From: Streptomyces sp. Je 1-369
Lineage (GTDB): Bacteria; Actinomycetota; Actinomycetes; Streptomycetales; Streptomycetaceae
Assembly (NCBI RefSeq): GCF_026810505.1
Contig: NZ_CP101750.1
Location: forward strand, 1,765,448 to 1,829,447
Length of the DNA stretch: 64,000 nt
Reading direction: 5' to 3'
The position numbers were made by a program, and so were the translations under genes. The notes below the pieces were generated by a model, which saw nothing but the letters and a program-made list of their open reading frames with translations, did not search any database and had not been told where the DNA came from. Shown one piece after another: positions 40,606 to 44,186 of the stretch (positions are counted from its first letter, which is position 1; each line of letters starts with the position of its first letter).

Positions 40606-40649
40606 CCATGAGCCCAGTCCGCGGGTCCACCGCAGAACAGGAGGTGACA

Positions 40650-41672
40650 GTGGCCGGGCCACTACAGGAAGCCGGGGCCCCACGCCCCACCAGCCGCGAC
40701 GTCGCACGCGCCGCAGGCGTCTCCCAGGCCACCGTCTCCCTCGTACTCGGCGACAAATGGCGCGGCCGCGTCGCCGAACCCACCGCCGAACGCGTCCGCA
40801 CCGCCGCACGCGAACTCGGCTACCGCCCCAACCTCGCCGCCCGCAACCTCCGCCTCGGCCGCACCCGGACAGCACTCCTCGTCGTCCCCGAACTCACCAA
40901 CGAATTCTTCGCCCACGTCTACACCGGCGTCGCCCGCATCGCCGCCCGCCACGGCTTCGGCGTCGTCCTCTACCCCTCCCCCGACGGCATCGGCCCCGCC
41001 CGCGACCCCTTCGCCTCCGCCCGCGCCTCCCTCGACGGCGTCCTCGCCTCCTCCATGGCCTCCGACGCCCTCGCCACCATCCGCGGCGACGACCTCCCCC
41101 TCGTCATGCTCGACAGCGACCCCGCGAACAGCCTCGGCGCCGCCACCGTCAACCTCGACCTCGCCGACGGCATGCGCCAGGTCACCGAACACCTCCTCGC
41201 CCTCGGCCACCGCGACTTCCTCCACCTCGCCGCCGACGTCGACTCCTGGACCTTCGACATCCGCGCCGAAGCGCTCGCCCGCACCCTCCGCGGCACCGAC
41301 ACCGCCGTACGCCGCGTCGCCGCACCCCTGAACGTCGAAGGCGCCCGCACCGTCGCCGAAGCCGCACTCTCCGGGCCGGGCCCCCGCCCCACCGCCATCG
41401 TCTGCGACGACGACTTCCTCTCCGCAGGCGCCTGCAAAGCCGCCCGACGCCTCGGCCTGCGCATCCCCGAGGACGTCTCCGTCACCGGCTTCGACGACCT
41501 CACCCTCGCGACCGCCGTCGAACCCGAACTGACCACCGTCCGACTCCCCGCCGAACGCTTCGGAGAACGCGCCATGGAATCCCTGGTCGCCGTCCTGGAG
41601 GCCCGCGAGCCCGACGCCACGCCACTCCCCGTCGAACTGGTCGTACGCGGCTCCACGGGCCCCACCCCCTGA
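40650..41672 (+). CDS. LacI-family transcriptional regulator
   Basis: A 340-aa repressor: helix-turn-helix TSRDVARAAGVSQATVSLVL (from about residue 13), hinge RPNLAARNLRLGRT, and a periplasmic-binding-like domain with DGVLASSMASDAL, LVMLDSDP, and the closing VSVTGFDDLTLATAVEPELT. GTG 40650 is chosen because AGGAGG ends five nt upstream; an ATG at 40608 abuts the palindrome and has no ribosome site. The effector, probably a sugar or related compound, is unknown. It is unlikely to regulate the proteasome genes, which face the other way. Confidence 0.9.
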   Translation: MAGPLQEAGAPRPTSRDVARAAGVSQATVSLVLGDKWRGRVAEPTAERVRTAARELGYRPNLAARNLRLGRTRTALLVVPELTNEFFAHVYTGVARIAARHGFGVVLYPSPDGIGPARDPFASARASLDGVLASSMASDALATIRGDDLPLVMLDSDPANSLGAATVNLDLADGMRQVTEHLLALGHRDFLHLAADVDSWTFDIRAEALARTLRGTDTAVRRVAAPLNVEGARTVAEAALSGPGPRPTAIVCDDDFLSAGACKAARRLGLRIPEDVSVTGFDDLTLATAVEPELTTVRLPAERFGERAMESLVAVLEAREPDATPLPVELVVRGSTGPTP

Positions 41673-42569: not shown

Positions 42570-43415
42570 TCAGAGCAACGCGGCCCGCGGACCGTCCGGC
42601 TGCTCCAGACGCTTCTCCAAGATCGAACGCGCAATGGCCGACGACTCGTCATCCGTCAGCCTGCGGAACCCCTCATCGGAAATCACGGTGACGATGGGAT
42701 AGATACGCCGCGCCACGTCAGGACCGCCCGTCGCCGAGTCGTCGTCCGCGGCGTCGTACAACGCCTGAACGACCAGCGTCGTCGCCTGCTCCTCCGTCAG
42801 ACCGTTGTGGTAGAGCTTCTTCATCGCACCGCGCGCGAAGACCGAACCCGAACCGGTCGCCGCGAAACCGTGCTCCTCCGAACGCCCACCCGTGACGTCG
42901 TACGAGAAGATACGACCCTTCTCGCGGTCCACGTCGTACCCCGCGAAGAGCGGCACCACGGCCAGGCCCTGCATGGCCATGCCGAGGTTGCTCCGAATCA
43001 TCGTGGAGAGGCGGTTCGCCTTGCCCTCCAGGGAGAGCGTGGCCCCCTCCACCTTCTCGAAGTGCTCCAGCTCCAACTGGAAGAGCTTCACCATCTCCAC
43101 GGCCAGACCCGCCGTACCGGCGATGCCCACCGCCGAGTACTCATCGGCCGGGAACACCTTCTCGATGTCGCGCTGCGCGATGACGTTGCCCATCGTCGCC
43201 CGCCGGTCGCCGGCGAGGACGACACCGCCGGGGAACGTCACGGCCACGATCGTCGTGCCGTGCGGCGCCTCGATCACGCCCTGCGTGGGCGGCAGTTGAC
43301 GGTTGCCCGGCAGGATCTCGGGCTGGTGCTCGGACAGGAAGTCCATGAACGACGACGAACCAGGCGTCAGGAAGGCAGCCGGTAGACGCCCTGTGCCACG
43401 AGTGTTGGCTTCCAC
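42570..43415 (-). CDS. prcB: 20S proteasome beta subunit
   Basis: A 281-aa beta subunit made as a precursor. The propeptide of 53 residues ends ...IEAPHG, and processing exposes Thr54 ([20 protein letters not shown]), the nucleophile. GTG 43415 is chosen for AAGGA five nt upstream and for the match to the Streptomyces propeptide as I recall ([14 protein letters not shown]). The first 49 nt overlap the end of the endonuclease gene in another reading frame, so the propeptide coding region also encodes the nuclease C terminus. Confidence 0.96.
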
Positions 43416-43960
43416 GCGTTTCCTTCCACGTATGCGGCCGCTCGCCTTATGGAGTCCGGCCGATCCTTGAATTGCCCCAGCGCCGCGTTGCAGCTGAAGC
43501 ACAGTACGCCTCGGACCCTACCCGTGTCGTGGCAGTGATCCACATGTACCGCCGGGGCGGCCAAGCAGATGCAGCAGACTCCCGCTTGAGAGAGGACCAG
43601 CTCGTCCCGCTCCGCCATGGTGATGCCGTACTTGCGCTTGAAGTAGCTCCGCTGATTCCGCTCAGCTCGGCAAATTTTGCAGTAACTCGAGTACCCGTCG
43701 GACGACGTGGGGTTGGGTTCCCATTCGGCGTGGGGCTTGACCTCTGTGCACTGAGGGCAACGCTTGTGGCCGTGCGGCACGGAGACTTTCACCCGCACCG
43801 CGCGACCTTTCGCCTCTTGGCGCTCCTTGTAGTACTCAGCAGCGCACTCCTTGCAGTAGGCCTGTAGGCCGCCCCGCATGGACTTGTTGCTCGCGAACGC
43901 CGCTCGCTCTCGCGTCCGCTTACAGCGCGAGCACTTCTTACCTTGCGGCAAGTCGGACAT
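43367..43960 (-). CDS. Endonuclease VII-like HNH protein inside the proteasome operon
   Basis: A 197-aa protein. Two zinc-ribbon segments lie at the N terminus (KCSRCK...YCKEC, about 9-37, and KRCPQC...YCKIC, about 70-98). The C-terminal domain is of the phage T4 endonuclease VII type: [20 protein letters not shown], then [18 protein letters not shown], with the HVDHCH metal site and the paired CxxC motifs. It starts at ATG 43960, 8 nt past the pup stop, with GAGGG just upstream. The end overlaps prcB by 49 nt. Endonuclease VII resolves branched DNA in phage; a role within proteasome biology is unknown. Its codon use is slightly poorer in GC. Confidence 0.88.
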
Positions 43961-43967
43961 TTGCCCT

Positions 43968-44186
43968 CTACTCGCCACCCTTTTGGACAAATGACCTCAC
44001 GAAATCCTCAGCATTCTCTTCCAAGACGTCATCGATTTCGTCAAGCACAGAGTCGACGTCGTCGCTCAGCTTCTCCTGGCGTTCCTTGAGGTCCTCCGAA
44101 GCCTGCGCGTCCTGCGTCTGCTCCTCGGTCTCCTCGGTGGGACGCGTCGCCTTCTGCTGTCCGCCGCCGGTGTCCTTGGTCGCCAT
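43968..44186 (-). CDS. pup: Prokaryotic ubiquitin-like protein Pup, ending GGE
   Basis: A 72-aa protein: disordered, Gln/Glu-rich N terminus, then the coiled-coil-forming ERQEKLSDDVDSVLDEIDDV that binds ARC, and the end FVQKGGE. The last codons read GGT GGC GAG TAG, so the terminal residue is Glu. Mycobacterial Pup ends in Gln and needs Dop deamidation; this form is encoded ready for ligation. It begins the pup-nuclease-prcB-prcA group. Confidence 0.97.
   Translation of the reverse strand: MATKDTGGGQQKATRPTEETEEQTQDAQASEDLKERQEKLSDDVDSVLDEIDDVLEENAEDFVRSFVQKGGE

Follow-up and report, generated by a model that had tools for sequence, protein, structure and literature searches.

Why does a nuclease gene sit between pup, the proteasome tag gene, and prcB, the gene for the proteasome beta subunit, in Streptomyces sp. 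Je 1-369, and does it serve its host or itself? The window, a 64,000-nt stretch of this genome, carries the whole arrangement on its minus strand. The stop codon of pup (43968..44186; PF05639 at 1.1e-29, TIGR03687 at 1.3e-20) is separated by 7 nt from the ATG of the nuclease gene (43367..43960, 197 aa), whose TGA stop lies within prcB (42570..43415; TIGR03690 at 5.8e-118). The two genes share 49 nt (43367..43415) that prcB reads in another frame, and the GTG start of prcB at 43415 is preceded by its ribosome-binding site GGAAGG (43422..43427), itself within the nuclease gene. Between 41000 and 47000 the open reading frames run in the order prcA, prcB, nuclease, pup, dop and arc, with prcA, dop and arc being what we presume these neighbours to be. 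A plus-strand frame at 40608-41672 resembles a LacI-type regulator by eye and converges on the end of prcA. The initial annotation had described the nuclease frame, its two zinc ribbons, its HVDHCH..CxxC core and the 49-nt overlap, all of which we confirmed, and had read the gene either as a captured selfish nuclease fixed by overlap or as a link between DNA repair and the proteasome.

The protein begins with two zinc-ribbon-like CxxC..CxxC pairs at residues 10-39 (43844..43933) and 68-97 (43670..43759), and the beta-beta-alpha-Me catalytic core follows at residues 129-158 (43487..43576, all on the minus strand), with the HVDHCH..CFSCN motif at 139-158. Pfam family PF02945 (Endonuclease_7) matches residues 107-179 of the 197 at 4e-24, which places the EndoVII motif at the C-terminus behind the zinc ribbons, and phrog_2633 (endonuclease VII) matches at 9.4e-42. 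The AlphaFold model has a mean pLDDT of 90 and a pTM of 0.61. In the window genome (8.82 Mb) the gene is the sole match to itself at E<=10, while 1105 proteins match it at E<=1e-10. D141, H142, H144, R150 and N158 are present in all 56 intact Streptomyces copies, with H139 in 55 and C132 in 54; conservation of D141 and H142 follows partly from how an intact copy was defined, whereas H144, R150 and N158 lie outside that definition. These three residues and the 1105 matches indicate that the open reading frame is more than a chance occurrence. Each of the four cysteines of the first zinc ribbon is found in 55/56 copies, the remaining row being gapped, and those of the second are retained in 52 to 55 of 56. 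The catalytic core residues are also invariant among 16 family-diverse sequences. Median dN/dS over the nuclease body is 0.31 (249 non-independent pairs), and over 18 close pairs it is 0.22, with one pair at 1.8, compared to 0.05 for prcB. Across the overlap with prcB the synonymous entropy ratio is 0.00-0.06.

The closest solved structure is Hpy99I, both by sequence profile (1.7e-14) and by fold (4.8e-6, with a TM of only 0.28), and the match covers the second zinc ribbon as well as the catalytic core. Hpy99I is a site-specific type II restriction endonuclease that adjoins a methylase, according to excerpts of PMC6083498; by eye we recognised no methylase among the window frames between 41000 and 47000, so the neighbour expected of a type II restriction enzyme was not seen there. 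T4 endonuclease VII, a resolvase, is second by sequence profile (1.8e-12), and its likeness lies in the catalytic core. Its residues 8-86 align only with profile positions 128-193 of 216, and its core is N-terminal (PMC6083498, in part) where that of the window protein is C-terminal, meaning that the match does not run the whole length of the T4 enzyme.

To see how the gene fares across the genus, 150 Streptomyces-genus genomes were drawn. PrcB was found in 149, the pup-prcB region could be read in 148, and both genes were present in 147; the three outside this set are G079 (no PrcB), G028 (upstream sequence missing) and G113 (pup not found). A copy was called intact when a stop-to-stop frame of at least 185 aa ended within prcB and carried the H.DH..C..C core. 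Three such copies (G036, G064 and G068) were removed by eye as having no full-length start and one, G118, with QVDH, was added. The nuclease is intact by this definition in 56 of the 147 genomes and not intact in 91. Five of these 91 (G014, G035, G090, G126 and G145) have an open core behind the zinc-ribbon cysteines with an altered C-terminus or a deletion, and their nucleases may be active, which would give 56 to 61 of 147. We divided the non-intact copies at an intergenic length of 175 nt into 63 mid remnants above it, with intergenic regions up to 589 nt that contain frameshifts, stops and deletions, and 28 deep remnants at 105-175 nt. In seventeen of these 28 shortest remnants the alignment with the nuclease reaches upstream of residue 173, in nine it begins only at residue 173 or beyond, and two do not align at all, with similarity over residues 182-197 left uncounted as it lies over prcB. 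The nuclease stop falls 49 nt into prcB in 56/56 intact copies, and the identical triplet is present in 85/91 non-intact genomes, so its position is set by the sequence of prcB itself. Two genomes carry second PrcB-like genes away from the main locus (G121:C142:25920-26747 and G133:C2:254569-255387), whose products are 64% and 42% identical to PrcB of the window.

On a DNA tree of the flanking genes prcB and dop, the intact and non-intact states require at least 21 changes, fewer than in any of 200 shuffles (mean 44.9, minimum 35). If regain is excluded, the tree needs 38 losses. The intact copy of G085 sits among the short-remnant carriers G114, G119 and G034 (supports 0.977, 0.996 and 0.721), and that of G143 groups with G004 and G015 (0.953 and 0.875), which share a near-identical remnant. 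In both G085 and G143 the last 60 nt of pup diverge more than the remaining pup, an effect that is weaker in G143. Two re-entries of the nuclease into lineages that had kept remnants only are the probable explanation of these placements, though the tree rests on two flanking genes and the same pattern could come from separate losses or from exchange of remnants.

These counts bear on whether the gene is a DNA-repair or Holliday-junction enzyme tied functionally to the proteasome or to PafBC. Its position between pup and prcB and its EndoVII homology would suit such a role, but an intact copy is missing in 91/147 genus genomes, the EndoVII motif lies at the C-terminus, Hpy99I and not the resolvase is the nearest solved structure, and 18 of the 21 best-scoring prcB loci outside the genus are without a long nuclease match. 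We consider this role very improbable. That most Streptomyces have lost the gene or hold it in decayed form (91/147) is the outcome the initial annotation had named as speaking against a shared role, and its link between DNA repair and the proteasome finds no support in a genus where most members do without an intact copy. A role in a joint operon as the main function was also considered and is ruled out by the recurrent decay.

If the nuclease were simply inherited with its neighbours, its divergence should resemble theirs. Distance tests on 55 intact copies (G073 left out) gave a Spearman correlation of 0.80 between prcB and dop DNA distances, compared to 0.35 between nuclease and prcB and 0.22 between nuclease and dop. 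In four sister-host pairs (G013/G110, G020/G111, G118/G136 and G140/G141) the flanks are 2.0-2.7% apart and the nuclease proteins 32-40% apart, and the window strain is a similar case, with flanks about 7% and nuclease 43% apart from G081. For three of the four sister pairs prcB dS is 0.04-0.05 and nuclease dS 0.98-1.62, a ratio of 24-41; across all pairs nuclease dS is saturated in 60, and these give no ratio. Since synonymous divergence is inflated as well, selection at the protein level cannot be the cause, and fast protein evolution in place of lateral exchange is ruled out on the same ground. Among pairs that gave a ratio, nuclease dS never fell below 0.61 times prcB dS, so a strikingly recent long-range transfer is not seen.

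The exchange does not stop at the nuclease start codon. In eight pairs inspected, divergence climbs inside the end of pup and drops again at the start of prcB. The last 60 nt of pup track the nuclease (partial rho 0.27 and 0.24, with 0/200 permutations as high) and not the host (0.04 and 0.09), and prcB tracks the host (0.44-0.73), apart from a faint association of its first 30 nt with the nuclease (0.17, 6/100 permutations). By sequence comparison, the exchanged unit is the 3′ end of pup (its last 60-80 nt) together with the nuclease. The halves of the nuclease can also part company: N-terminal and C-terminal halves are weakly correlated in Streptomyces (0.33), and the loci L188 and L191 differ by 1% in PrcB and by 3% in the C-terminal half of the nuclease, but by at least 52% in its N-terminal half. 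The sister genus to which these two belong appears to be Streptacidiphilus, L188 being identical to the named locus L311.

The end of pup that travels with the nuclease is also unusual in its codons. In the window the last 26 codons of pup (43971..44048, minus strand) are synonymously recoded, with a GC3 of 0.58 compared to 0.89 in the remaining pup. Across Streptomyces, GC3 over these codons is 0.63 in intact strains, 0.84 with mid remnants and 0.90 with deep remnants, against 0.91-0.93 in the remaining pup, and prcB beyond codon 16 shows no effect. Among 21 phylogenetically separate pairs the intact strain was lower in 18, higher in one and tied in two (sign test p 7.6e-5, Wilcoxon p 5e-4). 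In the 91 non-intact strains GC3 of the pup end is higher the shorter the remnant (rho -0.35, p 6e-4), which fits codon usage relaxing after nuclease loss. The same holds outside the genus, where GC3 over the last 20 codons is 0.63 (80 named loci), 0.67 (15 unnamed) and 0.70 (4 Streptacidiphilus) with the nuclease, these 99 loci including at least four repeats (L188 = L311, L223 = L272, L211 = L265 and L209 = L251). Without it the values are 0.95 (18 loci without a long match, of which L247 and L254 have a short nuclease-like match), 0.91 (4 Streptacidiphilus remnants) and 0.89 (5 empty Streptacidiphilus sites).

Two trivial causes of the recoding seem unlikely. One is a nearby downstream start codon: 11 of the 18 nuclease-free loci have the prcB start within 35 nt of pup and show no dip (mean 0.95). 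The other, a nuclease frame reaching into pup, is opposed by an in-frame stop just before the start codon in several intact copies, for example G139, G140 and G141. The last 26 codons are probably both the left part of the exchanged unit and the target of the nuclease, and we infer that their synonymous recoding protects the carrier's own target from cleavage. The recoded end might instead represent foreign codon usage carried along with the gene, or an aid to translation of the nuclease. The GC3 step lies near codon -26, but isolated low-GC3 codons occur farther upstream (e.g., -44, -38 and -35). Intact strains also show a small GC3 deficit in the remaining pup (mean -0.012, Wilcoxon p 0.05) and a lower GC3 at the dop end (0.81 compared to 0.87-0.89, measured in 70/147).

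Could the locus be a recombination hot spot, where the conserved ends of pup and prcB allow the DNA between them to be swapped and no nuclease action is needed? Streptomyces recombine readily, and the exchange ends do fall in conserved stretches. This account leaves unexplained why carriers from several families have a recoded pup end and nuclease-free loci do not, and why catalytic residues are kept in intact copies; we regard it as quite unlikely. The selfish half of the initial reading stands on lateral replacement, recurrent decay and the recoded pup end, and the fixation half fails, as 86 to 91 of 147 genomes are without an intact copy and 38 losses are counted on the flank tree if there was no regain.

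The association with pup extends well beyond Streptomyces. A scan of GTDB genomes returned at least 533 relatives, of which the best 80 were kept; they include Micromonospora, Paractinoplanes, Catellatospora, Nonomuraea, Actinomadura, Blastococcus, Klenkia, Streptacidiphilus, Actinacidiphila and Frankiales MAGs. In all 80 of these best, named relatives the gene immediately follows pup; the order is pup-nuclease-prcB in 70, and in the other 10 prcB lies farther off or outside the fetched stretch. In 14 of the 80 a single frame of 320-449 aa adjoining pup holds two EndoVII cores (L293, L305, L307, L308, L312, L320, L324, L326, L329, L333-L335, L341 and L346); these belong to Nonomuraea, Actinomadura, Bailinhaonella and one MAG, and at 7 of 8 Nonomuraea loci no prcB match was found in the fetched stretch. 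The gene is patchy at the level of the class: 52/296 genomes have a match at E<=1e-12, and 31 of these belong to families other than that of the window (position checked for part of them). A long nuclease match was present at 3 of 21 non-genus prcB loci, these loci being the best-scoring and not a random draw. Five Streptacidiphilus loci (L195-L199) have a pup-prcB gap of 39-40 nt and are apparent empty sites. Further EndoVII-like genes are scattered elsewhere in Streptomyces genomes (L224-L241). Above the genus level the nuclease correlates with PrcB (Spearman 0.62-0.65, 140 loci) and so broadly follows host families; it has thus kept this site over a long period, with exchange taking place mainly within genera.

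A nuclease that benefits the host, for example against phage or plasmid DNA, would account for part of this picture, with recombination generating its diversity and loss following where it is not needed. Frequent loss, allele diversity and dN/dS of 0.2-0.3 also fit defence genes, as does an N-terminal half that is exchanged separately. However, such a gene would not be predicted to exchange and recode the 3′ end of pup along with itself, nor would all 80 of the best relatives (of at least 533) be expected beside pup, and on balance we think this explanation unlikely.

Phages are the best-known home of free-standing homing endonucleases. Among nucleases with an EndoVII motif are resolvases and restriction enzymes, and also F-CphI, a free-standing homing endonuclease of cyanophage S-PM2 (PMC6083498, in part). 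The window nuclease resembles F-CphI in its D, H, H, R and N residues, in its C-terminal motif and in being a free-standing gene beside a conserved one, and it shares the DHHRN residues and C-terminal core with the endonuclease clade described in the same excerpts when compared by features alone. Like a gene of the F-CphI type it is optional and lies between conserved genes, with alleles that are without it (including L195-L199); genome comparison points to lateral transfer with co-conversion of the flank, and the recoded pup end offers indirect support for site-specific cleavage of the allele without the gene and for protection of the carrier's own allele. The differences are that F-CphI is a phage gene beside psbA that works with a group I intron (PMC6083498, in part), whereas the window nuclease resides on a bacterial chromosome beside pup, with no intron noticed, and that the pup-linked nuclease has N-terminal zinc ribbons and a promoter-like element inside the gene. 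Free-standing homing genes are described as lying between conserved genes and moving with co-conversion (PMC2988022, in part), and the intronless homing of T4 Seg and Mob is comparable in both respects. Seg enzymes are GIY-YIG and Mob enzymes HNH, as opposed to the EndoVII core here, and the T4 free-standing enzymes cut hundreds or thousands of bp away (PMC2988022, in part), where the pup flank exchanged in our case is 60-80 nt.

We therefore favour, with good confidence, a free-standing homing-type nuclease that has an EndoVII (DHHRN) core and lives, in Actinomycetes, at the 3′ end of pup. A stable partnership with the proteasome or with repair does not seem to fit. Comparison of the loci shows the conserved core, lateral replacement together with the pup end, frequent decay, and recoding in carriers. 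The nuclease would cut pup near its 3′ end in strains lacking this particular allele, repair would then copy the donor pup end along with the nuclease, and synonymous recoding of pup would shield the carrier. Target choice probably lies with the zinc-ribbon half, which can be exchanged independently of the catalytic half. Against a homing-type nuclease, purifying selection on it could also mean a benefit to the host, and above the genus level it largely follows host families. Compared to known homing genes, it differs in residing on a bacterial chromosome and in having one and the same gene next to it across many genera, a recoded probable target and a promoter-like element within active-site codons. 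In the open-licence literature we found no account that brings endonuclease VII together with Streptomyces, the proteasome and pup, or with prcB, and none of SCO1645, although a remark in a subscription paper is possible.

The promoter-like element lies in the active-site codons of the gene. Among intact Streptomyces copies the synonymous entropy ratio (observed/expected) is 0.10 at codons 145-154, compared to 0.43-1.23 elsewhere outside the prcB overlap. Thr146 is ACG, Gly147 GGT and Val149 GTC in 56/56 copies, and residue 148, where it is Arg, is AGG in 46/46 even though AGG usage is 13.5%. The corresponding GGTANNNT is retained in 61/63 mid and 28/28 deep remnants, or 89/91 non-intact copies. 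When aligned on GGTANNNT, the mid remnants retain CATGTGGATCAC at 1.2-2.0 bits per column and CGGGTAGGGTCCG at 1.4-2.0 bits, with the ten columns between CATGTGGATCAC and CGGGTAGGGTCCG at 0.4-1.6 bits; the GGTA and T columns served to find the element, so their conservation in remnants is partly by construction. In the window these islands correspond to TAGGGT within codons Gly147-Val149 (43515..43520) and, 16 nt upstream, TGGATC within codons Val140-His142 (43537..43542), both on the minus strand. Of 18 fetched stretches with EndoVII genes from other places in Streptomyces genomes, 17 yielded the core, and none of these 17 has the element at the corresponding position; nor do 13 prcB-linked copies of other families, and all of these genes use other codons. 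Of 94 cores in the best 80 relatives it occurs in two, both Streptacidiphilus, and two more carry another GGTANNNT; by eye it is also absent from the empty sites L195-L199. Constraint on the HVDH and TGRVRG residues as protein only is ruled out by the frozen codons, by the islands persisting in non-coding copies and by the other codons used elsewhere.

TAGGGT satisfies TANNNT, the -10 motif at 80.4% of S. coelicolor starts, whereas TGGATC is not the canonical -35, which as NTGACC is present at 58.6% of starts (PMC4895711, in part). Within 40 nt, NTGACC was found in 0/56 intact copies, 0/61 mid remnants and 9/28 deep remnants, there only 14 nt from the -10. A sigma-70 scan with the E. coli consensus gave no promoter at the element, and inspection by eye for a PafBC motif there gave no convincing match. 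With GGTANNNT surviving in 89/91 non-intact copies, prcBA probably has a promoter of its own, and going by codon freezing and retention in remnants it is likely that the element (TGGATC-16-TAGGGT in the window) is that promoter. In Streptomyces and Streptacidiphilus the active-site codons hold a promoter-like element and the end of the gene the prcB ribosome-binding site; both remain after the nuclease has died, and the host seems to rely on them for expression of prcBA.

The region just after pup adds to this. The first 70 nt fold below -30 kcal/mol in 22/28 deep and 28/63 mid remnants and in 2/56 intact copies, and z is below -2 in 22/28, 17/63 and 16/56, respectively (30 shuffles each); one hairpin rechecked by folding it as DNA had a z of -5.8. 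At L144:1488-1525 and other short-remnant loci a very strong GC-rich hairpin follows pup directly where the nuclease has been deleted. This hairpin is possibly a terminator separating transcription of pup from that of prcBA. The initial annotation had stated that pup, the nuclease and the proteasome genes must be expressed together; we could not confirm this, and a promoter-like element that outlives the gene and a strong hairpin after pup in most of the shortest remnants argue against it.

Taken jointly, we see about an even chance that a homing lineage has occupied the Actinomycete pup for much of the history of the class, shielding its carriers by recoding, renewing the half that reads the target and forming a single chain with two cores in Nonomuraea and Actinomadura, and that in Streptomyces and Streptacidiphilus it made the host dependent through a prcBA promoter in its active-site codons, so that dead copies are rarely removed completely. 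A lineage of this kind beside a bacterial proteasome gene in many genera makes target choice, self-immunity and cycles of loss testable by comparison. Here the active-site codons of a parasite may also act as a promoter for the host, a case relevant to the way in which selfish and host genes become entangled. In Mycobacterium pup and prcBA are taken to be co-transcribed, and the regulation of prcBA in Streptomyces may differ from this.
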